NCBI GenBank assembly: GCA_028284045.1 | Contig: JANQSN010000043.1 | Span: 1 to 64,000 of the forward strand | DNA: 64,000 nucleotides | Direction of reading: 5' to 3' | Source: Alphaproteobacteria bacterium | GTDB lineage: Bacteria > Pseudomonadota > Alphaproteobacteria > DSM-16000 > Inquilinaceae | Part shown: positions 9,290-59,109 of the stretch, in pieces | Numbering within the stretch: position 1 is the first letter of the stretch | Layout of the letters: the number at the start of each line of letters is the position of its first letter | The notes under the pieces: model-generated | What the model saw: only the letters and a program-made list of their open reading frames with translations | Databases searched by the model: none | What the model was told of the DNA's origin: nothing | Position numbers and translations under genes: made by a program

Positions 9290-12283
9290 ATGGAGGCGGC
9301 GGAAGACGCGTACGCGGAAGCCGAACGCCGCATTGCCGCGTGGCGCCAGGGCGAAGCGCTCGATCTGGCGATCGTTGGTCTGGAGACGATCCCGGGTGGC
9401 ATCCGGGCCCTGACCAAGCTGCAGTCGTTGGACTGCTCCTTTACGTCGGTCAGCGATCTGTCGCCGCTGTCTGGCCTGACCGCGCTGCAGTCGTTGGACT
9501 GCTCCCGCACGCAGGTCAGCGATCTGTCGCCGCTGTCTGGCCTGACCGCGCTGCGGTCGTTGACCTGCTCCGGCACGTCGGTCAGCGATCTGTCGCCGCT
9601 GTCTGGCCTGACCGCGCTGCAGTCGTTGACCTGCTCCGGCACGTCGGTCAGCGATCTGTCGCCGCTGTCTGGCCTGACCGCGCTGCAGTCGTTGCACTGC
9701 TTCGGCACGGAGGTCAGCGATCTGTCGCCGCTGTCTGGCCTGACCGCGCTGCAGTCGTTGGACTGCTCCGGCACGTCGGTCAGCGGTCTGTCGCCGCTGT
9801 CTAGCCTGACCGCGCTGCAGTCGTTGGACTGCTCCGGCACGTCGGTCAGCGATCTGTCGCCGCTGTCTGGCCTGACCGCGCTGCAGTTGTTGGACTGCTC
9901 CGGCACGTCAGTCAGCGATCTGTCGCCGTTATCGGGCCTGACAGCGCTGGAGTCTTTGCACTGCTCCGGTTCACTGGTCAGTGATCTTTCGCCGTTGTCA
10001 GGCCTGACGGCCCTGGAGTCCTTGGGGTGCGCCTTCACATCGGTCTGCGATCTGTTGCCGTTGGACGCACTCCCTGCACTACAGCGAGCAGAGTTTTCTC
10101 GTTGCCGGCTCGATCGCGCGCCGATCTCGATGTGGTGGAAAGCGTCTCTTCGTAATCTGCGTCTCTGGGAAACGATGATCCCGGACATCCCGGCGGAGGT
10201 GCTGTCGCAAACGCCGGTGAAGAATTGCCTCGCCTCATTGCGCGCCCATCTGAGTGACCTCGGCGACCAGCCGGAGCCGGCGCGGCAGGCCAAGCTGTTC
10301 ATTCTCGGCAATGGGCGGGTCGGCAAGACGCAGATTGCCCGGCGGCTTCGACACGAAGACTACGACCCTAGGATCACGTCGACCCATGGCATCCTGGTCT
10401 CTGACGCGCCGGTGCCGGGCGGGGGTGACGGGCGCCTCAATCTCTGGGATTTCGGCGGTCAGGACCTCTACCACAGCACCCATGCGCTTTTCCTGCGCAG
10501 CCGTTCCGTCTTCCTCGTGGTGTGGAGCGAGGCGATGGAGGCGGCGCAGACCCATGAGCATGAGGGGCTGGAGTTCCGCAACTACCCGCTGACCTATTGG
10601 CTGGACTACGTTCGGCGCCTGGGCGGTGCCGATGCGCCGGTCATCGTTGTTCAGGCGCAGTGCGACACACCGGCGGTGGAGCGCGTGTTGCCGCCGGCCG
10701 TCTGGGAAAGCCTGGAGCGCTTCACCTTCCGCAAGGTGCTCCAGTACAGCGCGCAGGAGAACCGCGGCCGGGCGGCGCTGGACGAGGCGATTGCGGAGGC
10801 GTTTGTGCAACTGGACCAACCGCTAATCGGATCCGGCCGCGCCGCCATCCTGCGGAACATCGACGGCTGGCGCGCGCAGCTAAGCGGCGACGCCGCGGCG
10901 GCGGTGCCCAAGACCCTCAGCCAGGACGATTTTCGCACGCTGTGCGAGACCACCGGCGGCATCTCCGACGCCGACCAATTTCTGCGCTTCCTGCACAATG
11001 CCGGCGCCGTGTTCCACCAGCCGGGCCTGTTCGGCGACCAGATCATCATCGATCAGAACTGGGTGTTGCAGGCGATCTACGCCGTCTTCCACCGGCAGTC
11101 CTGTACCCCCGTGCTGCGCGATCAGGGCGGCCGCTTCACCCGGTTCCTGCTGGCCGCCTTGCTTTGGGAGCGTGCGCCGAACGCCTACACGGTCAAGGAA
11201 CAGCGACTGTTCCTCAGCATGATGCAGACCTGCGGCATCTGCTTCTCGATCCGCGACTCTGGGGCGGCGGATTCAGAGTATGTCGCTCCCGACCTGCTGC
11301 CGGACAAGCGGCCGGACACCGAGATCGCCGCCCGCTGGGACCGGGCCGCGCCGATCGAGCGCGCGACCCTCCGCTTCGATCTGCTGCCCCAGACCCTGAT
11401 GCGTGGCGTGATCTGCCGCATCGGTGGTCGCGCAGGCCTGTCCGGCCTCTACTGGCTCGCCGGGCTGTGTGTCTATGAGGCGAGGACCGGCAGTCGGGCG
11501 CTGGTCGAACAGGCGATGGACGGCGACTGGTGCGGCCGCATCACCTTGGCGACGCAAGGTGGCCGGGCGCCTGACCTGCTGCGCGCGCTGGTCGACATCG
11601 TTGTGGAGGAGGCGGCGCGGTTCGGCCTTGACTACAAGCTGGACGACGAGCCCGTTCGTCGACGGCTTGACGAAGCGCCGGACATGCCCGCGCTGGAGTT
11701 CCGGTCCGATCCCACCGACCGGCCCGACTACTACGTCTCCTATGCTTGGAAAGATGACAAGTCCCCAGAGGGCCGACGGCGCGAGGACGAGGTGGACCGG
11801 TTCTGCAGCGAGAGCGAGGCCCGCAACGGCATTCGGGTTCATCGCGACAAGGACGATCTCGGCTTCCGCGACAGCATCGGCCGGTTCATGGAACGCCTTG
11901 GACAGGGGGAGCGGGTGTTCGTCTTCCTCAGCGACAAATACCTGAAATCGCCCAACTGTATGTTCGAGCTGTCGGAGGTCTGGCGCCATGCCGGCCAGCG
12001 GGAGGATGACTTCGTCGCGCGCATTCGGGTCTTTGCGCTGTCGGATGCGCGGATCAAGACCATCCCGGATCGCATGGCCTACGCAGCGCATTGGACCGCC
12101 GAGTTCGAGAAGCTGGACGCGGCGGTTCGACACTTCGGCCCAAAGCACCTGTCGGTGAAGGATGCAGCGACCTATCTCAAAATCGGCCAATTCGCCGACG
12201 CGGTGAGGGACATCCTGACGGTGATCGCCGACCGGGTGCAGCCGCGCAGCTTCGACGATTTCTTCCGGGATGGCTTCGACTGA
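9290..12283 (+). CDS. LRR-Roc-COR-TIR protein (bacterial Roco GTPase fused to a TIR domain)
   Basis: A 997-aa multidomain protein. Residues 44-263 hold ten 22-residue leucine-rich repeats plus a decayed eleventh. A Roc GTPase domain follows: P-loop GNGRVGKT 340-347, switch II WDFGGQ 386-391, a G4-position sequence QAQCD 455-459 (the usual NKxD is altered), and a SAQ G5-like motif. A COR-like region spans about 540-780 and includes a recognisable LHNAG...IIIDQNWVLQAIY stretch. A C-terminal TIR domain runs from about 811 (YYVSYAW) to 945. Glu893 in SPNCMFEL sits where TIR NADases carry their catalytic Glu. No signal peptide or membrane helix is seen. The ATG at 9290 follows GGGGA; an in-frame TTG at 9245 would add 15 residues. 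Known family facts: Roco proteins are GTP-regulated dimers and many bacterial TIRs destroy NAD+ in phage defence. Inference: the LRR senses a ligand, Roc-COR switches, and TIR executes. It stands alone between housekeeping genes. Confidence 0.9.
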   Translation: MEAAEDAYAEAERRIAAWRQGEALDLAIVGLETIPGGIRALTKLQSLDCSFTSVSDLSPLSGLTALQSLDCSRTQVSDLSPLSGLTALRSLTCSGTSVSDLSPLSGLTALQSLTCSGTSVSDLSPLSGLTALQSLHCFGTEVSDLSPLSGLTALQSLDCSGTSVSGLSPLSSLTALQSLDCSGTSVSDLSPLSGLTALQLLDCSGTSVSDLSPLSGLTALESLHCSGSLVSDLSPLSGLTALESLGCAFTSVCDLLPLDALPALQRAEFSRCRLDRAPISMWWKASLRNLRLWETMIPDIPAEVLSQTPVKNCLASLRAHLSDLGDQPEPARQAKLFILGNGRVGKTQIARRLRHEDYDPRITSTHGILVSDAPVPGGGDGRLNLWDFGGQDLYHSTHALFLRSRSVFLVVWSEAMEAAQTHEHEGLEFRNYPLTYWLDYVRRLGGADAPVIVVQAQCDTPAVERVLPPAVWESLERFTFRKVLQYSAQENRGRAALDEAIAEAFVQLDQPLIGSGRAAILRNIDGWRAQLSGDAAAAVPKTLSQDDFRTLCETTGGISDADQFLRFLHNAGAVFHQPGLFGDQIIIDQNWVLQAIYAVFHRQSCTPVLRDQGGRFTRFLLAALLWERAPNAYTVKEQRLFLSMMQTCGICFSIRDSGAADSEYVAPDLLPDKRPDTEIAARWDRAAPIERATLRFDLLPQTLMRGVICRIGGRAGLSGLYWLAGLCVYEARTGSRALVEQAMDGDWCGRITLATQGGRAPDLLRALVDIVVEEAARFGLDYKLDDEPVRRRLDEAPDMPALEFRSDPTDRPDYYVSYAWKDDKSPEGRRREDEVDRFCSESEARNGIRVHRDKDDLGFRDSIGRFMERLGQGERVFVFLSDKYLKSPNCMFELSEVWRHAGQREDDFVARIRVFALSDARIKTIPDRMAYAAHWTAEFEKLDAAVRHFGPKHLSVKDAATYLKIGQFADAVRDILTVIADRVQPRSFDDFFRDGFD
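9419..10078 (+). repeat. Ten tandem 66-bp LRR-coding repeats
   Basis: Ten head-to-tail 66-bp units encode the pattern LQSLDCSGTSVSDLSPLSGL plus TA. Units 1-8 are almost identical in DNA, differing mainly at the codons for the variable surface positions (D/T/H, S/R/F, S/Q/E). Units 9 and 10 are more diverged. Near-identity including third codon positions means recent expansion or gene conversion. This is a protein-coding repeat, not a CRISPR. Confidence 0.95.
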
Positions 12284-12371: not shown

Positions 12372-13322
12372 ATGACCCCCAGCGATACGACCGCCCGCGC
12401 CCGGCGCGGCGACCGCACCGATATCCCGCCCGATAACTGGATCGACCGGTATGCGCCGGCCGGCGCGCGGCCCTATCTGCGGCTGATGCGGCTGGAGCGG
12501 CCGATCGGCTGGTGGCTCTTGGTCTTTCCGTGCTGGTGGGGCCTGGCGCTGGCGCCGCGGCCGGACGGGTTCGCCTGGGTCGACGCGTGGTACGCCGTCC
12601 TGTTCCTTGTCGGGTCCATCGTGATGCGCGGGGCCGGCTGCACCATCAACGACATCATCGACCGGGACATCGACGGCCGGGTTGCCCGCACCCGCACCCG
12701 GCCGATCGCGTCCGGCGCGATCAGCGTGCGCCAGGCGCTGGTGTTCCTGGCCGCGCAGCTTCTGGTCGGCCTGGCCGTGCTGGTGCAGTTCAATTGGGCG
12801 ACCATCTGGCTCGGCGTGGCGTCGCTCGCGCTGGTCTTCCCCTATCCGCTGATGAAGCGGGTGACTTGGTGGCCGCAGGCCTTCCTGGGCATCACCTTCA
12901 ATTGGGGGGCGCTGGTCGGCTGGACCGCGGTGACCGGGTCGCTGGGCTGGCCGGCGGTGATCCTCTATCTGTCGGCCGCCGCCTGGACCATCGCCTACGA
13001 CACCATCTATGCGCACCAGGACAAGGAGGACGACGCCCGCATCGGCGTGAAGTCCACGGCGCTGAAGTTCGGCCCGAAAAGCAAGCCGATGGTCTTGGCG
13101 TTCTATTCGGCCGCCGTCGCCGGGATCGTTGCGGCGGGGCTGATGGCCGGGCTGTCGGTCATCTTCTTGCCGCTGGTCGGCCTCGGCGCGGCGTTCCTGC
13201 TGGTGCGGCTCGCCGCCTGGCGGCCCGACGATCCGGCCGATTGCCTTGCCCGCTTCAAGGAGCAGCGCTGGTTCGCCTGGGCCGTCTTGGCCGGTTTCGT
13301 CGTGGCCCAACTCCTGGGCTGA
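12372..13322 (+). CDS. ubiA: 4-hydroxybenzoate polyprenyltransferase
   Basis: A 316-aa integral-membrane prenyltransferase that attaches the polyprenyl tail to 4-hydroxybenzoate in ubiquinone synthesis. The first Asp-rich motif NDIIDRDID begins at residue 93 (D94, D97, D101), followed by the RTRTRP stretch. The second, YDTIYAHQDKEDD, lies near residue 215. Several hydrophobic helices and the length match UbiA. The start ATG at 12372 leaves a hydrophilic N-terminus of about 45 residues, common in alphaproteobacteria. It is monocistronic by appearance, ending at a small hairpin and convergent with the RTX gene. Confidence 0.95.
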   Translation: MTPSDTTARARRGDRTDIPPDNWIDRYAPAGARPYLRLMRLERPIGWWLLVFPCWWGLALAPRPDGFAWVDAWYAVLFLVGSIVMRGAGCTINDIIDRDIDGRVARTRTRPIASGAISVRQALVFLAAQLLVGLAVLVQFNWATIWLGVASLALVFPYPLMKRVTWWPQAFLGITFNWGALVGWTAVTGSLGWPAVILYLSAAAWTIAYDTIYAHQDKEDDARIGVKSTALKFGPKSKPMVLAFYSAAVAGIVAAGLMAGLSVIFLPLVGLGAAFLLVRLAAWRPDDPADCLARFKEQRWFAWAVLAGFVVAQLLG

Positions 13323-13345
13323 GGGGCGGCCCGCCGGACCGCCCC
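13323..13345. terminator. Hairpin between convergent ubiA and RTX gene
   Basis: GGGGCGG (13323-13329) pairs with CCGCCCC (13339-13345) immediately after the ubiA stop codon and 15 nt before the RTX gene ends. It could serve both strands, but no T-run is visible. Confidence 0.4.
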
Positions 13346-13359
13346 CTGCCCACCCGCGC

Positions 13360-14604
13360 TCAATAGAGGAAGTCGGTGCTTGTGTTGATCTCGCCGGGCT
13401 GGATGTCCTCCAGCAAGGCCAGTTCGACGAAGCCGCCGCCGGTGTCGACCAGCAGCCGGGTGTCGGTGCCGTCGGCGATGAGCTGGACGTCGGCGGCGCT
13501 GCCCACCAGCCCCGACAGATCGAACAGATCGCCCTCGGTCGGGTCGAAGTCGCGGATCACCGACCGGTCGCCGGCCGAGGCCGGCACGCCCTCGAAGATG
13601 AAGGTGTCCGCCCCGCTGCCGCCATGGGCGGTGTCGGTCGGCCCGACATGCAGCCGGTCGTTGCCGTTGCCGCCGTAGAGCCGGTCGGTGCCGCTGTTGC
13701 CGGTCAGCGTGTCGTTGCCGTTGCCGCCGTAGACCCAGTCGTTGCCGGCGCCGCCGGAGACGTAGTCGTTGCCGTTGTCGCCGCTGGCCGTGTCGTTGCC
13801 GTTGCCGGCATAGATCCGGTCGTCGTCATTGCCGCCATAGAGGCGGTCGTTTCCGACATCGCCGTAGAGCCAGTCGTTGCCGTCGTTGCCATAGACCCAG
13901 TCGTTGCCCTGGCCGCCATTGGCGGTGTCGTTGCCGTTGCCGCCGAACAGGCGGTCGACGCCGTTATGACCATACAGGTAGTCGTTGCCGTCCTGGCCAT
14001 AGAGCCGGTCGTCGCCGTCATTGCCGTAGAGGCGGTCGACGCCGTCCTCGCCGAAGAGCTGGTCGTTGCCCGCCCCGCCATAGAGGCGGTCGTTGCCGGT
14101 GCCGCCCTCCAGGAAGTCGTTGCCGTCCTGGCCGTAGAGCCGATCGTTGCCGCTGCCGCCGTCCAGCGTGTCGGCGCCGGTGCCGCCGTTGATCGAGTCG
14201 TTGCCGTTGCCGCCGCGGATCTGGTCGTTGCCGGCCATGCCGTAGAGCAGGTCCGCACCGTCGTCGCCGCGGATCTGGTCGTTGCCGTCGCCGCCGTTCA
14301 CCGTGTCGTTGCCGGTGCCGCCGTAGAGCCAGTCGTTCCCGGTCCCGCCGGAGAGGTAGTCGTTGCCGTTACCCCCCATGATCCAGTCGTTGCCCGACTC
14401 GCCGAACAGCAGATCGTCGCCGTCCTCGCCGAACAGCGCATCGTCGCCGCGGCCGCCATAGGCGCGGTCGTTGCCGGTGCCGGCCCAGATGACGTCGATG
14501 CCGTCATAGCCGTACAGCCAGTCATTGCCGCCATAGCCGTAGATGTAGTCGTTCAGGTTGGTGCCGCGCAGCGTTTCGCTACGCGAGGTTCCGCGAATAC
14601 GCAT
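13360..14604 (-). CDS. RTX-type calcium-binding repeat protein
   Basis: A 414-aa protein that is almost entirely glycine/aspartate nonapeptide repeats (GGxGxDxLY pattern), from about residue 8 (SRSETLRGTNLNDYIYGY) to about 310. A roughly 95-residue C-terminal part rich in D, G and F follows (GGSGADTFIFEG...), as in serralysin-type RTX C-termini. Such repeats form Ca2+-binding beta rolls, and RTX proteins are usually secreted by type I systems using an uncleaved C-terminal signal. No N-terminal signal peptide and no catalytic domain are visible, and no type I exporter genes are adjacent. The repetitive DNA generates long shadow frames on the other strand. The function is not deducible beyond Ca2+ binding. 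Confidence 0.88.
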   Translation of the reverse strand: MRIRGTSRSETLRGTNLNDYIYGYGGNDWLYGYDGIDVIWAGTGNDRAYGGRGDDALFGEDGDDLLFGESGNDWIMGGNGNDYLSGGTGNDWLYGGTGNDTVNGGDGNDQIRGDDGADLLYGMAGNDQIRGGNGNDSINGGTGADTLDGGSGNDRLYGQDGNDFLEGGTGNDRLYGGAGNDQLFGEDGVDRLYGNDGDDRLYGQDGNDYLYGHNGVDRLFGGNGNDTANGGQGNDWVYGNDGNDWLYGDVGNDRLYGGNDDDRIYAGNGNDTASGDNGNDYVSGGAGNDWVYGGNGNDTLTGNSGTDRLYGGNGNDRLHVGPTDTAHGGSGADTFIFEGVPASAGDRSVIRDFDPTEGDLFDLSGLVGSAADVQLIADGTDTRLLVDTGGGFVELALLEDIQPGEINTSTDFLY

Positions 14605-53668: not shown

Positions 53669-54872
53669 CGCCGTCTCGGCGGCGGCCGGCGCGCCAGATC
53701 AGCCCCAGCGCCAGTACCAGAACGACAGCCGGGTAGAGCGCCGACAGGCGGAAGAGATCGCCGAGCGCGATCGCCTCGCGCAGCAGGCCGACCAAGAACG
53801 TGCCGGACCCGGCGCCGATCATCAGGGCCGCCATCATCATCGCCGAGACGAAGGGGACGGCGCCGGGGAACCGCCGCGTCGCCTCCGCCACGGTCAGCGG
53901 AAAGAAGGCGGAGCAGGCGAGCCCGGCGAAGGCGAAGGCGGCGATACCGGCCGCCGTTCCCTGGGTCGCCGGCACGACGTTGAACGCAACCATCATCAAG
54001 ACCGGCAGGGCGAGCCAGATCGGCGTCGCCCGGAACCGGACCAGGAGGGTGGCGACCACCAGCCGCCCGGTCACCAGCGCCGCCCAGAAGGCCGACAGGC
54101 CCCAGGGCGCGATGGCGGAATCGACCTGCTTCTCCTGGGACAGGAAGACGACGGCCCAGTTGCTGAACGTGCCTTCGGCGACGGCATAGAGGATTACGAT
54201 GGCCACCAGGGTCCAGAAGGCTGGATTGCGCAGCGGTGGGGCGCTCGCCGGGGCGTCGGTTTCCGGGTCGGGCGGCGCCTCGACCGGCAGCCGGATGAGG
54301 CCGGCCGAAAACACCGTGCAGAGCGCGAGCGCCACGACGGTCAGCGGATAGGCCGGCCATAGGCCGGCGCCGCTGGCCAGGCCCGCGACGAACGGCCCGA
54401 CGGCGAAGCCGGCGCCGAAGAGGGTGTGGGCCGTGACCAGCGCGGCATCGGCGCGCGCCGGGAACAGCAGGCGTGGATAGGTGTTGAGGGGCGCGCCGAG
54501 CAGGCCGAAGGCGAGGCCCAGCGCCGCGCCACCCAGCATCAGCACCGGCAGCACCGCCGCCGGGCCGGCCAGCGCGCTGCCCGCGAGGCAAAGCTGCGAC
54601 GCGACGTTGGCCAGCATCGCCCCGACCAGCAGCCGCTTGAGCCCGAAGCGCCGGGCCAGCAGCCCGCCGGCCAGCGCGCCCAGCACGGCCAAGGCGATCT
54701 GCGGCAGGAACAGCGCGCCATAGGCGGCATCGGATATCCCGAGATCGCCCGTCAGGACGGCACTGAGGCCCGGGAAGCTGACGACCGCCAGCCCCTGCAG
54801 GAAGGCCGCACCATAGACAAGTCCCGCGGCAGCCGGCCGAGACGGCAGGGGGGTGGGCGCGACACCGCGCAT
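53655..54872 (-). CDS. MFS transporter (12-helix)
   Basis: A 405-aa inner-membrane major facilitator. About twelve hydrophobic helices are present, with the loop 2-3 motif [19 protein letters not shown] in the first half. There is no obvious substrate signature. AAGGACCTGCC precedes the ATG. It overlaps rnhB and heads the ccrM-cob series, which may be coincidental or could link it to uptake or efflux of a metabolite of that pathway. The 230-nt region upstream (54873-55095) shows no gene. Confidence 0.85.
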
Positions 54873-55095
54873 GGCAGGTCCTTCAGCGATGCCCCGGGGA
54901 ATCCGGCCCGAAGGGCGCCGGGGGTGGGGCGGGCACGACTGCTGTTGTGGATGCTCGGCCCGGCCGAGGCGTATCGCCGGGGTTCGTTCACGCTCACTCG
55001 TAACCGGGCGCGCGGTGCCGCATCAATAGCGGGATCCGGATCGCCGGGTCCGCCTTCTGACAGGCAAGTCGCACCAGCCCAAGGACGACCGCCCC

Positions 55096-55360
55096 ATGCC
55101 GGATTTCCGCCGTTTCCTTGCCGCCGGACTATCCAGCCGAAGCCGTGGTGCGCCGAGTGCGCCAAGCCGGGACGATCAAATGGCAGGGTGCGGAGCTGTT
55201 CATCAGCGAGGCTCTGGCCCGCGAGCCGGTCGGATTGTTCCCGGTCGGCGAGGACATCTGGCTGGTCAAGTATGGACCGGTGGTGCTCGGCACGATGAGG
55301 GGGAGAGAAGGATTGATCCGCGTTGGGCCGGGGTGGCCGCCCCGGCCCAACGCGGCCTGA
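55096..55360 (+). pseudogene. Remnant of an IS481-like transposase C-terminus
   Basis: The frame from 55118 reads LPPDYPAEAVVRRVRQAG, then TIKWQGAELFISEALAREPV and LVKYGPVVLGTM. This is the C-terminal tail pattern of integrase-core (IS481-like) transposases, which end with IxxxGxxxFxSEALxGExVGL. The preceding residues (RPMPDF) fit the same family in another frame, so a frameshift lies at about 55105-55117. The catalytic core is absent. The last codons run into a palindrome at 55321-55352. Confidence 0.6.
55321..55352. repeat. 13-bp perfect inverted repeat at the end of the transposase remnant
   Basis: CGTTGGGCCGGGG (55321-55333) and CCCCGGCCCAACG (55340-55352) flank a 6-nt loop. It is a strong hairpin that could terminate transcription or be a residual mobile-element feature. 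Confidence 0.6.
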
Positions 55361-55374
55361 ACGAAACGAGAAAC

Positions 55375-55412
55375 CTGTCACCCATGTGATCGGGCTAGAC
55401 TGTTACCCATGT
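55375..55412. mobile_element. Likely right end of the decayed IS (direct repeats)
   Basis: CTGTCACCCATGT (55375-55387) and CTGTTACCCATGT (55400-55412) are 13-bp direct repeats 25 bp apart, followed by CTCCGG. This repeated CTGTnACCCATGTCTCCGG arrangement resembles the termini of IS481-like elements. No left-end counterpart was found. Confidence 0.45.
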
Positions 55413-55528
55413 CTCCGGTTGCTCAGGGGGTGGTCTTCTCAGGGATCCGGACCGGCGACAGGGGTGACGGGTCGCAGGCGTGCCCGCGGCGAAACCGGCT
55501 TCGACCGGCGCCATCACCCCCACCCGGA

Positions 55529-55551
55529 CCCTCCCCCATCAAGGGGGAGGG
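55529..55551. repeat. Palindromic intergenic repeat, family B copy 3
   Basis: CCCTCCCCC / GGGGGAGGG around ATCAA, identical in the stem to the copy at 102-124 and preceded by the same ATCACCCCCACCC flank. It lies 53 nt beyond the 3' end of the minus-strand P450 gene, again a terminator position. Confidence 0.6.
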
Positions 55552-55603
55552 ACCCATTGATGTCGACGGTGTTGGCGCGATGGCGTTTGGCGGCCGGCCG
55601 GCT

Positions 55604-56851
55604 CTATGTCTGCCAGGCGATGGGAAAGCGCTCCGGCACCGGGCCGCCGTCATAGTCGACCGGGCCGGCGGCCCTGAGACCGGGGCGACGCAGGCACTGA
55701 CGCACGATCTCAGGAATCATGACCGATGCGATCGGGCGTCCCAGGCACTCGTGCAAGCCCAGGCCGAAATGGAACATGTCCGACGGCGCCCGGCCCGGAT
55801 CGAACCGGTCGGGGTCGGCGATCACTCCGGCGTCGTGCATCGCGGCGTGGGTGACGGCGAGCACCGTGGTGCCGGGCTGAACCGTGGTTGCGTGATCGGT
55901 GCCGCCGGCCAGCGTCATCGGCCGGTGGCAGGTCCGGAAGAAGTACGGGAAGGCCGGCCGGAAGCGGAGCGCCTCGAAGGCGAAACCGTCGACCTCGGCA
56001 GGCTCGCCGCCCTCCGCCGCGTTTCGCGCGCGGGCCAGCACGTCCGGCCGATCCAGCAGCCCGGCGAGTGCGTTGACCATCGCGTGCGACGTCGTTTCGA
56101 CCGCGCCGATCAGCAGCCCGCCGACATTCAAGACGACGCGGGCGACGTCGAACCGCAGGGCGCCGCCGAAGGATAGCTTGACCAGGCGGACCACCGGGTC
56201 GTCGGGGAGGTCCGATGCGCCGGCCTGCAGCTCGCCGACCCGGCGCCGCACGAGCGCGACGATGTAGTCGCGCATCGCTTCGTTAACCCGCTCGCGATGG
56301 GCGACGATCGCCGCCGGATCGGGGCGTAGGATCGCGTCGAAGGGCTGGTTGTGGAACGCATCCATCTGGTTCCAGTAGGACCATTCTACGAGCTGGGCCG
56401 GGTCGCTGTCGGCGAAACCGAACCAGTCCTGGACGAGCGCGATCGGCACCGCCCGGCCGAGCCCCCCGACCGCATCGATCGAGCCGCCCGCCTGGTCGAG
56501 CAGCGCGCCGGCCTTGGCCGCGACATAGTCCCGGATCTTGGGAATGTCCTCGCGGTCGAGGATGGCGCGCATGATCGACTTCTCCCGCCAATGGGCGGGG
56601 GTGTCGTCCTGGGCCATCCAATAATCGCCCTGCTTCGGCGCATAGAGGTCGACACCGAACGCGTCGTGGCGGCGCAGCACCTCCACGCAGTCGTGGAACC
56701 GGGTCACCAGCGTGACCTCCGGCAGTTCCAGAACCGGGCGGTATTGGCGCAGTTCCGGGTAGAGGGCCAGCGGGGACGACGCCATCCAGTCCCGCACCCG
56801 CCGCCATCGCTCGGCCGCCGGGGTGGCGTCGAGTTCCGCAAGGTAGCTCAT
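55604..56851 (-). CDS. Cytochrome P450
   Basis: A 415-aa soluble bacterial P450 monooxygenase. The haem-ligand loop HFGLGLHECLG has Cys369, the K-helix ExxR is EALR, and the I-helix region GAVETTSHAMVN carries the usual acidic-Thr pair. No membrane anchor is seen, so it is class I and needs a ferredoxin and reductase, neither of which is adjacent. It lies 12 nt downstream of the di-haem cytochrome c gene in the same direction, so they are probably cotranscribed. The substrate is unknown. Confidence 0.93.
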   Translation of the reverse strand: MSYLAELDATPAAERWRRVRDWMASSPLALYPELRQYRPVLELPEVTLVTRFHDCVEVLRRHDAFGVDLYAPKQGDYWMAQDDTPAHWREKSIMRAILDREDIPKIRDYVAAKAGALLDQAGGSIDAVGGLGRAVPIALVQDWFGFADSDPAQLVEWSYWNQMDAFHNQPFDAILRPDPAAIVAHRERVNEAMRDYIVALVRRRVGELQAGASDLPDDPVVRLVKLSFGGALRFDVARVVLNVGGLLIGAVETTSHAMVNALAGLLDRPDVLARARNAAEGGEPAEVDGFAFEALRFRPAFPYFFRTCHRPMTLAGGTDHATTVQPGTTVLAVTHAAMHDAGVIADPDRFDPGRAPSDMFHFGLGLHECLGRPIASVMIPEIVRQCLRRPGLRAAGPVDYDGGPVPERFPIAWQT

Positions 56852-56863
56852 CGGCGTTCCCCG

Positions 56864-58555
56864 TCAGATCGTCTTCAGGAACTCGATGATCGCCAGGCGC
56901 TCGTCGTGGGAGAGGCCGTCGCGCGGATAGAGATGGCCGATATTGCGGTTGCCGGAGACGCTGGTGTCGAAGCGGAAGCGGCCCGGGGCGTCCAGGCTGA
57001 CGAAGCCCAGCCGCTCGCGGTCCAGCTCCTGCCCGCCGGTCCAGAAGACGGCGCGGCGCTCCGCCTCCGGCGACAGCAACTCGTAGATCGTCGCCACCGA
57101 GCCGTTGTGCAGATAGGGGCCGGTCGCCCAGATGCCGGCCAGCGGTCCGGCCTTGAGATAGGCGCCTTCCTGCGGCCGGTAGAGTTCCGGCACGCCGCCC
57201 GGCTCGGCCGGCGGCGAGAAGCGGTAGCCGTGCATCGCCACCTGCTCTTCCGGGCTGAGGTCGAGATCGGCCATGGCGCGCTTCACCACCGCGCCGACGG
57301 TGTTCAGGAAATACCGCGGTGCCGGGACGAGGGCAGCGCCTTCATTGGCCAACGCCGTCGCGGCGTTGGTGCGCACGGTGCGGAACAGCAGCGCTTCCAT
57401 GTACCGCGGATCGGTCCCGACCGCGCGATAGTCGGTCCGGCCGATCTCGATGAAGGTCATTTCCCGGGCGTTCACCGCCGGATCGGTCATCCGATAGGGC
57501 GGCCGGGCGTTGTTATGGCAGGCCGCGCAATGGGCGTCGTAGAGCGCTTCCCCCGCCGCGGCGAGGTCGCGGTCGATCGGCCCCATCACCGCCTCGTCCC
57601 AGACCGGCGGCGCGAGGTCGGCCACCCAGCTCTCCAGCGCATGCAGATCGTGCAGGCGCACGCTGGCGGTGAACCAGTCCTCCGGCGGGCCGGTCAGCGT
57701 GGTCTCGCCGAAGACGCCCAGCACCTCGCCGACATTGCGGCCGATCGGGCTCGCCGCCACGGGGAACCACTGAACGAACTCCAGGTCCGAGGACAGCCAC
57801 AGCGACGGATAGCTGGTCGGCGCGCCGACGCTGCGCAGGTTGCGCGGGTCGCCCTGGCCGGAGACCGCCAGGGCATTGACGATCTCCGTCAGCGCGTCGA
57901 CCCGGCCGAAGCCGGAGCGCACCACCGGCCGGCGGATCGCCGCGTCGCCGGCAAGCCGCGCCTCGAACGCGGCGAAGGCGTCGGCCAGCGCCGCGACTGC
58001 CTCTTCGCTCGGCGGGTCGAGGATCCGCCCGGCGAAGGCCGCGAACCGGTCGGGGTCGTAGCGGGTGCGGGCGACGGCGGCGGCGAGGTCGGCGTAGAAC
58101 AAGTCGAAGTCGAGGGCGGCGGCGCCGCCGTCGATGCGGACCACGGTGCCGTCCACCGTGACCTCGGCGGTGTGGCAGGCAGCGCAGGTCAGCCCGACGG
58201 ATCCGTCGTCCGGATCGATGGCGAAGCCGATGGGCAGGCCGTCGGGATTGAGCGGTGTCGGCGCGTCGGCCGGAATGAAGCCGTAGCGTTGCAGATGCGC
58301 GGTCTCGGCGAACAGGCCTTCGCCATCCGCCCGCTCCAGCGCCATGAACCAGTCATAGGGCATCATGCGCGAGCCCTGGGGCGTGAAGTAATACGCCTCC
58401 CGCAGTTCCTGCGACCATCCCTGGTCGAGGAACGTCACATCGCGGCCCGGTTCCGCGCGCGAGTTCCGCTTGTCGGCGACGATGAACGCCGCCGCCAACA
58501 CGAAGATCCCGATGTATCCGAAGAAGAGAAACATCGATCGGCTGTTGAAGAACAT
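56864..58555 (-). CDS. Di-haem cytochrome c, RoxA/cytochrome c peroxidase-like
   Basis: A 563-aa protein with an N-terminal anchor or uncleaved signal (MFLFFGYIGIFVLAAAFIV, residues 8-26). It has two c-type haem sites, CAACH at 124-128 and CAACH at 343-347, and the late TGPYLHNGSVATIYELL motif seen in RoxA-like rubber oxygenases and related di-haem peroxidase-family proteins. The ATG at 58555 has GGAGG five bases upstream and is preferred over 58621. The protein is periplasmic, whereas the following P450 is cytoplasmic. Oxidation of a hydrophobic compound is a possible common theme (inference). It is shorter than RoxA itself. Confidence 0.82.
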   Translation of the reverse strand: MFFNSRSMFLFFGYIGIFVLAAAFIVADKRNSRAEPGRDVTFLDQGWSQELREAYYFTPQGSRMMPYDWFMALERADGEGLFAETAHLQRYGFIPADAPTPLNPDGLPIGFAIDPDDGSVGLTCAACHTAEVTVDGTVVRIDGGAAALDFDLFYADLAAAVARTRYDPDRFAAFAGRILDPPSEEAVAALADAFAAFEARLAGDAAIRRPVVRSGFGRVDALTEIVNALAVSGQGDPRNLRSVGAPTSYPSLWLSSDLEFVQWFPVAASPIGRNVGEVLGVFGETTLTGPPEDWFTASVRLHDLHALESWVADLAPPVWDEAVMGPIDRDLAAAGEALYDAHCAACHNNARPPYRMTDPAVNAREMTFIEIGRTDYRAVGTDPRYMEALLFRTVRTNAATALANEGAALVPAPRYFLNTVGAVVKRAMADLDLSPEEQVAMHGYRFSPPAEPGGVPELYRPQEGAYLKAGPLAGIWATGPYLHNGSVATIYELLSPEAERRAVFWTGGQELDRERLGFVSLDAPGRFRFDTSVSGNRNIGHLYPRDGLSHDERLAIIEFLKTI

Positions 58556-58755
58556 GCCGGCCTCCGACGTATGGATGGGTACGCACGCTCCCGACTGGGA
58601 GAAAGAGGCAAAGTCCAGCAACTCGGGCGCAAATCTGCTGCCCGTCCGCTCCCTTCATGATCCTATCACGGAATTATCGTCGCCCGCGCCTGCAATCTTG
58701 GCGCGAGGCGGGGTGGCCATCAGGCCTTGGGTTGGCCGCCCCGGATCGGCTGGTG

Positions 58756-59109
58756 TCAGCCGGCCGCCTCGCCCCCCTTGGGGCCCCAGAACACCACCCA
58801 CACCACCAGGTCGTCTGTGAAGTCGACGAAGCGGTGGGAGACGCCGGCCGGCACGAACAGCATGTCGCCGGGTTCGAAGGCGCTGCGCTCCTCCCCCCGG
58901 ATGAAGGTGCCGAAGCCGTGCATGACGACGTAGATCTCGTCCTGGTCATGCGGGGCCTGATCGTCCGTCAGGCGCGGTACGTAGAGCCCGGCGCGCATGG
59001 AGCCGTGGCGCAGCACCTCGGTGAACGGGCGTCCGGGCTTATGGGGCAGATTGGCTCTGGCGGTCTCCAGCGCGAACAACCAGTCGGTCTCTCGGGGCAT
59101 ACTGTTCAT
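58756..59109 (-). CDS. Small cupin-domain protein
   Basis: A 117-aa single-domain cupin. Motif 1 is APHDQDEIYVVMHGFGTFI and motif 2 is FEPGDMLFVPAGVSHRFVDF, with the His and Glu residues of a metal site (HDQDE, H in SHRF). The start ATG at 59109 overlaps the GNAT stop (TGATG), so the two are translationally coupled. Its chemistry cannot be assigned. Confidence 0.85.
   Translation of the reverse strand: MNSMPRETDWLFALETARANLPHKPGRPFTEVLRHGSMRAGLYVPRLTDDQAPHDQDEIYVVMHGFGTFIRGEERSAFEPGDMLFVPAGVSHRFVDFTDDLVVWVVFWGPKGGEAAG

Follow-up and report, generated by a model that had tools for sequence, protein, structure and literature searches.

On the minus strand of contig JANQSN010000043.1, from an alphaproteobacterium of the Inquilinaceae, a gene for a di-haem c-type cytochrome is followed 12 nt downstream by a gene for a cytochrome P450 (P450). 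We analysed the first 64,000 nucleotides of this contig, hereafter called the window. Both genes had been recognised in an original prediction, and the coordinates of the open reading frames (ORFs) confirm their common strand and their spacing. We found that the pairing is conserved and was probably formed more than once, and that relatives of either gene occur with other haem-protein partners. The features of the pair, all on the minus strand, are the following (window coordinates; residue numbers in brackets).

58561..58565, minus: GGAGG, ribosome-binding-like site for the di-haem gene
56864..58555, minus: di-haem c-type cytochrome of the NF040606 family with predicted RoxA fold, 563 aa counted from the ATG, upstream gene of the pair
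58466..58543, minus: N-terminal hydrophobic helix (5-30), probable inner-membrane anchor or export signal, judged from the sequence and a predicted helix with a predicted local distance difference test score (pLDDT) of ~50-60
58172..58186, minus: CAACH (124-128), N-terminal haem site with H128, by analogy with RoxA the putative O2-binding haem
57767..57772, minus: Q262-W263; W263 aligns with the inter-haem W302 of RoxA and Q262 with RoxA F301 (alignment and mapping in PMC4496055)
57515..57529, minus: CAACH (343-347), C-terminal haem site with H347
57098..57115, minus: YLHNGS (481-486), motif common to RoxA, MauG and FadCcp (MauG according to PMC4496055)
56933..56935, minus: H541, aligned in sequence with RoxA H641, the distal ligand of the C-terminal haem
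56852..56863, minus: intergenic gap of 12 nt, with the Shine-Dalgarno-like GGGGAA (56857-56862) ahead of the P450 ATG
55604..56851, minus: cytochrome P450, 415 aa, second gene, no export signal seen by eye
56090..56098, minus: I-helix E252-T253-T254 with the canonical acid-alcohol pair
55964..55975, minus: ExxR motif, EALR (E293-R296)
55739..55768, minus: haem-thiolate loop FGLGLHECLG (362-371) with C369

The two encoded proteins

The di-haem protein matches NF040606 (di-heme-cytochrome C peroxidase) over model positions 1-524 of 524 with 489 bits (cut-off 150). This family is annotated as cytochrome c peroxidase (CCP) and comprises at least 567 confirmed relatives. The protein also matches PF21419 (RoxA-like_Cyt-c) with 54 bits (cut-off 26.7), and it contains the two CAACH sites and the YLHNGS motif described previously. 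An AlphaFold2 model based on a 51-row alignment has a mean pLDDT of 91.7, and its best solved match in Foldseek is RoxA (4b2n, E 3.4e-11). In a structural comparison of this predicted model with 149 chains, 4b2n reached Z 18.4 (root-mean-square deviation 3.5, 392 residues), a hydrazine synthase subunit Z 12.8, and MauG and ordinary CCPs Z 9.0-12.3. The length of the protein is ~1.7 times that of solved CCPs. According to the model the protein has a RoxA-type fold; it does not fall with plain CCPs, the placement that would have counted against the original prediction. The designation as RoxA-like holds for the fold and fails for membership in the rubber oxygenases, which we rejected on the model scores: the protein obtained 44.8 bits with NF050033 (RoxA, cut-off 1000) and 61.9 and 52.3 bits with NF050034 (RoxB) and NF051462 (RoxC, cut-off 900 for both).

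In Pseudomonas aeruginosa, conversion of oleic acid has been demonstrated for the fatty-acid di-haem Ccp (FadCcp) enzymes PA2077 and PA2078 (oleate diol synthase; PMC4496055; PMC5155153). A genus-level search led to genome G765, which harbours tandem same-strand NF040606 genes scoring 529 and 488 bits. These fit PA2077 and PA2078 in their lengths (634 aa, counted from the second Met, and 624 aa), in the positions of most haem His residues and in several of the motifs. Two His positions are off by one, the first gene has CSMCH/CSSCH where CAGCH/CAACH was published, and both have PYLH for the PYFH tabulated in PMC4496055. We therefore call them PA2077-like and PA2078-like; judged by their sequences they appear to be the oleate-converting enzymes. 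The window protein shares with FadCcp the similar NF040606 scores, the tryptophan in the VQW of PA2077, the distal His, the two haems and the two-enzyme operon. It differs in that its second enzyme is a P450, while that of FadCcp is a di-haem paralogue.

RoxA residues F301, W302 and F317 were mapped onto PA2077 (PMC4496055). If the numbering in that paper refers to the mature protein, an offset which we inferred, the PA2077-like protein would have Q271, W272 and F290 at these positions; the adjacent Q and K match the F301Q and A316K reported there. By sequence alignment, W302 is W263 in the window protein, is kept in PA2077 and is Ser in PA2078. A profile search aligned H347 and H541 with the C-terminal haem site of RoxA and its ligand H641. 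The two haems, the HNGS motif, this His ligand, the W302 equivalent and the predicted fold are common to the window protein and RoxA/RoxB/RoxC; no link of the former to rubber is known. Two relatives, in Ruegeria (L024:4624-7632) and Actibacterium (L027:4588-7620), have an N-terminal extension of ~450 aa, which in the Ruegeria protein holds a third CxxCH and recalls the three-haem RoxC proteins (PMC10837239).

The second protein is a cytochrome P450, as had been predicted: it has a PF00067 score of 63 bits (cut-off 22.8), the ExxR motif and the Cys loop. Its best match among solved structures has an E value of 1.3e-18, which means that it is distant from any solved P450. With solved bacterial P450s (2fr7, 3mgx, CYP113A1, CYP199A4) it has the ExxR motif, the Cys loop and the E-T pair in common; unlike them, it is linked to haem peroxidase-type genes and has no Fer2 gene on its contig. 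The look-up of ferredoxin partners that had been proposed located Fer2 matches elsewhere in the genome, seven in all and each on a different contig from the P450 gene; none of them was assigned to the P450. In hydroperoxide-converting P450s of the CYP74, PGIS and LDS type, the acid-alcohol pair of the I-helix is lost. It is intact in the window P450 and in all 11 di-haem-linked rows of our alignment, while the acid is gone in three of the four rows linked to a DyP-type peroxidase. The retained E252-T253 allows ordinary O2-dependent hydroxylation, and the loss of the acid hints at peroxide-driven chemistry in the DyP-linked sister group. The P450 is the sole one found in the genome (both PF00067 segments map to this gene), which also has a single NF040606 match above the cut-off. 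No catalase-related protein was found there in a search run without a positive control.

Conservation and probable repeated assembly of the pair

The original prediction had proposed examining whether the pair is conserved, and from both sides the linkage proved to be real, so that a lack of conserved linkage, its other refuting condition, did not occur either. From the di-haem side we considered the best 80 loci of the confirmed relatives in a scan of genome contigs. Five of them, from a Paracoccus metagenome-assembled genome (MAG), Rhodoplanes tepidamans, a Rhodovibrionaceae MAG, Candidatus Nitrotoga and Xanthobacter, carry this P450 gene directly downstream, with a gap of at most 10 nt or an overlap when the first start codon is taken. 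On Methylobacterium plasmids the order is di-haem gene, helix-turn-helix regulator gene and P450 gene (46% identity to the window P450), and on a Bradyrhizobium plasmid the di-haem gene is followed by a P450 gene spanning the record start. The pairing thus extends over Alpha- and Betaproteobacteria and over different di-haem branches. From the P450 side, the P450 alone was used as query against 385 genomes of the class and 398 of the phylum (two overlapping sets; E no higher than 1e-40). Besides the genome of the window, seven genomes were found, and in all seven a haem peroxidase-type gene lies beside or near the P450 gene. In three it belongs to NF040606 (adjacent in G373 and G549, one gene between in G540); the other four have a DyP-type peroxidase (adjacent in G023, G612 and G641, two genes between in G317). 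No third gene tied to the pair was detected among the 60 largest ORF clusters over the loci compared. In genomes near that of the window the di-haem gene is sporadic: five of 60 other genomes have a match, and it is near full length in only one of them, which lies outside the taxonomic family to which the window belongs.

In the P450 tree, DyP-linked and di-haem-linked P450s are split by one branch (100/98). Xanthobacter groups with Methylobacterium (94-99% bootstrap) and Nitrotoga with G549 (84-93%), while in the di-haem tree both join the clade of the window protein, Xanthobacter with 81-85% and Nitrotoga with 100%. In approximately unbiased tests, for which the groupings were chosen after inspection of the trees, the P450 groupings were rejected by the di-haem data (p 0.019 and 8e-5) and the di-haem groupings by the P450 data (p 3e-53 with six rows, 0.011 with five rows). 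Since the trees disagree, the pairs were probably formed repeatedly. On a 63-row di-haem tree, the presence of a P450 required seven changes, a number equally low in seven of 500 shuffles; here Bradyrhizobium L014 was labelled as lacking the P450 that spans its record start, and its identical twin L102 as having it. Re-pairing is the simplest reading of these data and speaks for a functional connection, not for neighbourhood by chance.

A catalase-related protein is encoded at 37 of the 80 di-haem loci: directly downstream on the same strand at 31, upstream at one (L035) and fused to the di-haem protein at five. It was never found together with a P450 (0 of 80). Against Pfam catalase, the best E value among the proteins scanned is 4e-9; the catalase part of one fused protein is weak (L068, E 0.003) and that of another is unseen by Pfam (L054), and both were detected by phmmer. 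In other organisms, fatty-acid hydroperoxides are substrates of catalase-related proteins (PMC5617202; PMC13049297). The catalase-related protein of the Pseudomonas-type locus L049 starts with a hydrophobic stretch, while the window P450 does not. The fused ORFs (L054:5617-8733, L056:3447-6437, L057:5758-8682, L061:5701-8709 and L068:4601-7504) encode ~970-1040 aa each, with an NF040606 di-haem domain and a catalase-related domain. They originate from three Planctomycetes MAGs, one uncultured bin and one Limnohabitans MAG, which is possibly misbinned. On the di-haem tree, all but one of these five fused proteins lie close together, so the fusion may have been a single event. A further candidate fusion in G765 was dropped, since the two frames differ.

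At the DyP-P450 loci we observed related proteins of another kind (L103:4663-5172; L104:9258-9947 and 9845-10600; L113:12105-13283 and 13144-13914; L114:4610-6259). Their genes adjoin those of DyP, the P450 and, in two loci, a lipase. Two of the proteins contain an SNF-G-W-Y motif, and the members from L103, L104 and L114 have no Pfam match.

Genes for lipid-active enzymes were found near several relatives. Patatin-type genes adjoin the di-haem gene or the pair in four cases: those of Nitrotoga and Ruegeria halocynthiae exceed the Pfam cut-off, and those of Methylobacterium and Sinorhizobium fredii NGR234 stay below it. An LCAT gene adjoins the P450 gene of G023 and a Tle1-like lipase gene that of G317; the Bradyrhizobium-type di-haem gene has an oleate hydratase gene (L014:1019-2779, L102:3-1109) ~3-4 kb upstream. 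In a neighbour comparison of 47 of the 80 loci (a set of 50 minus three Pseudomonas loci), we scanned 111 of 119 near and 140 of 146 far ORFs, some of them antisense shadows, and considered the best 25 of 142 and the best 25 of 165 Pfam families. Patatin was the commonest family in the near ORFs (3 of 111), with at most one occurrence in the 140 far ORFs, a suggestive excess in small numbers. Pfam counts were used after a custom patatin profile had caught a narrow patatin subgroup only. In R. halocynthiae (L022), a close relative with 53% identity, the patatin gene (L022:7653-8828) adjoins the di-haem gene, and the flanks examined contain no P450 gene; the patatin resembles a CBASS phospholipase model (81.5 bits, cut-off 200). 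On pNGR234a (L013:3775-9828) the genes for a catalase-related protein, an unknown protein, the di-haem protein and a patatin-like protein stand in a row.

A candidate lipid-oxygenation module and its alternatives

The same pairing seems to have been formed more than once, which suggests that both enzymes act on one fatty compound. We tentatively favour, at a little short of even confidence, a two-gene module for lipid oxygenation of the oxylipin type. The di-haem protein would be a RoxA-fold dioxygenase, probably with an anchor in the inner membrane and its bulk on the periplasmic side. It would bind O2 at its N-terminal haem and be tuned by the W263 bridge and the second haem. It would insert O2 into an unsaturated acyl chain at the membrane, yielding a fatty-acid hydroperoxide or a related product. 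This oxygenated lipid would pass to the cytosol, where the presumably cytosolic and co-translated P450 could convert it by isomerisation, peroxygenation or further hydroxylation. In this way a defined oxylipin would be made and a toxic hydroperoxide kept from building up. In favour of this reading we count the family shared, at similar scores, with the PA2077-like and PA2078-like proteins, the predicted RoxA fold with W263 and H541 retained, the linkage seen from both sides, the conflict between the trees, the catalase-related partners and the lipid genes at some loci; a further point is that overexpression of PA2077 with the operon blocked was lethal (PMC4496055). Change of either haem His of PA2077 abolished activity (PMC4496055). 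Fungal linoleate diol synthases also couple a haem dioxygenase to a P450 (PMC13049297). This is an analogy only: they are cyclooxygenase-like and fused, whereas the window encodes a c-type di-haem protein and a P450 by separate genes and apparently for different compartments. The di-haem relatives linked or fused to a catalase-related protein recall the coral fusions of lipoxygenase with catalase-related allene oxide synthase or hydroperoxide lyase (PMC5617202; PMC3925239), in which the dioxygenase is of another type; the window has a P450 instead.

Several observations weigh against a lipid-oxygenation module. The window protein is 31-32% identical to the PA2077-like and PA2078-like proteins and does not group with them within NF040606: in the 63-row quick tree these join Ruegeria pomeroyi and Rhizobium rows (Shimodaira-Hasegawa-like approximate likelihood ratio test, SH-aLRT, 99), and the window protein is in a separate 11-row group (SH-aLRT 97). 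Sequence alignment, made through PA2077 only, shows Gln (Q262) in place of RoxA F301 and no residue aligned with F317, the stretch bearing the F317 equivalent of PA2077 being absent. In PA2078 the same haem His changes left activity intact (PMC4496055), so the second enzyme of the known pair need not use haem chemistry. The E-T pair, typical of O2-dependent monooxygenases, lends no support to a pure hydroperoxide isomerase, and the two window enzymes seem to reside in different compartments. At 38 of the 80 di-haem loci neither a P450 nor a catalase-related partner is present, with some of the contigs stopping close to the gene. Pseudomonas or Pseudomonas-like bacteria account for 29 of the 37 catalase-linked loci, and DyP rather than the di-haem protein is the partner in four of the seven genomes found from the P450 side. 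The three scanned neighbours of the window pair include no recognised lipid gene, and phmmer found no patatin in the three closest relatives of the window locus (L019-L021; the L019 contig is short), for which the Pfam scan covered the best 25 of 61 families.

The same data bear on other explanations. The pair could serve in defence against peroxides, with the di-haem protein removing, as a peroxidase, H2O2 or organic hydroperoxides that arise at the membrane, the P450 or its catalase-related or DyP counterpart clearing the rest, and phospholipases at some loci removing damaged chains. The alternative partners do belong to peroxide-using haem families, the name of the family is cytochrome c peroxidase, and PA2078 has been proposed to limit hydroperoxide toxicity (PMC4496055). 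However, the structural match to RoxA lies well above those to CCPs, the C-terminal haem ligand aligns with RoxA H641, the P450 keeps the standard O2-activating pair, and no regulator was found among the three scanned neighbour genes; we consider this explanation unlikely, though worth keeping in mind. Oxidation of another hydrophobic substrate, such as a hydrocarbon, a sterol-like or an aromatic compound, would suit a P450 distant from solved ones and neighbours in the window that give no substrate clue. The experimentally studied NF040606 members found in the literature act, however, on unsaturated fatty acids, and this lowers the chances of such a substrate further.

The original prediction had suggested a route for isoprenoid breakdown, in which cleavage by a RoxA-like oxygenase would be followed by hydroxylation by the P450. 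In its favour are the RoxA-like Pfam domain and RoxA as the closest solved structure. However, the cut-offs of RoxA, RoxB and RoxC were missed more than 10-fold; of F301 and F317, both reported as important for rubber cleavage (PMC6797691), the first aligns with Gln and the second with no residue; and the listed neighbour matches (best 25 families per list) include no terpene gene. Acyl lipids are suggested by the genes around some relatives, and we regard the isoprenoid route as improbable. Least probable is a plain bacterial CCP beside an unrelated P450. The NCBI family name would fit, and di-haem CCPs and MauG also match the structure significantly, but such a protein is disfavoured by the fold, the size and the family, and chance neighbourhood by the pairing in Alpha- and Betaproteobacteria and on different di-haem branches.

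It is tempting to extend the lipid-oxygenation reading to a bacterial oxylipin system in which a RoxA-fold di-haem dioxygenase works with an exchangeable second enzyme: a P450, a di-haem paralogue, or a catalase-related protein that is either linked or fused to it. The window would represent the P450 form, and a sister P450 clade would work with DyP. This wider pattern, which is drawn from genomic context, is possible though rather doubtful; as a claim it is more interesting than the window pair itself. The RoxA fold, the NF040606 family, the FadCcp oleate enzymes and P450s were already known, and no description of a di-haem-P450 pair or of partner exchange was found in our searches of an open-access library. 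Oxylipins of this kind steer motility, biofilm formation and cell-to-cell signalling in P. aeruginosa (PMC5155153; PMC6377657). If the pairing rule is true, it provides a testable lipid-oxidising pathway for many environmental bacteria, a guess at the substrate of a P450 clade that is still uncharacterised, and an example of one dioxygenase type adopting unrelated second enzymes.

Surroundings of the pair in the window

A consensus scan of positions 54800-58800 gave one promoter-like site (mean of 0.2 in shuffles), which is within the P450 gene, and one terminator-like site (mean of 1.3 in shuffles), which spans the start of the di-haem gene; neither of them is positioned to serve the pair. 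Downstream of the P450 gene, an inverted repeat, CCCTCCCCCATCAAGGGGGAGGG, was seen by eye at 55530-55553; it is absent from the list of the terminator scan. The three scanned neighbours encode a cupin and a GNAT protein upstream and an MFS transporter downstream. The GC content of the pair (70.0%) equals that of the window (69.5%), and its GC content at third codon positions (88-91%) likewise matches the window.

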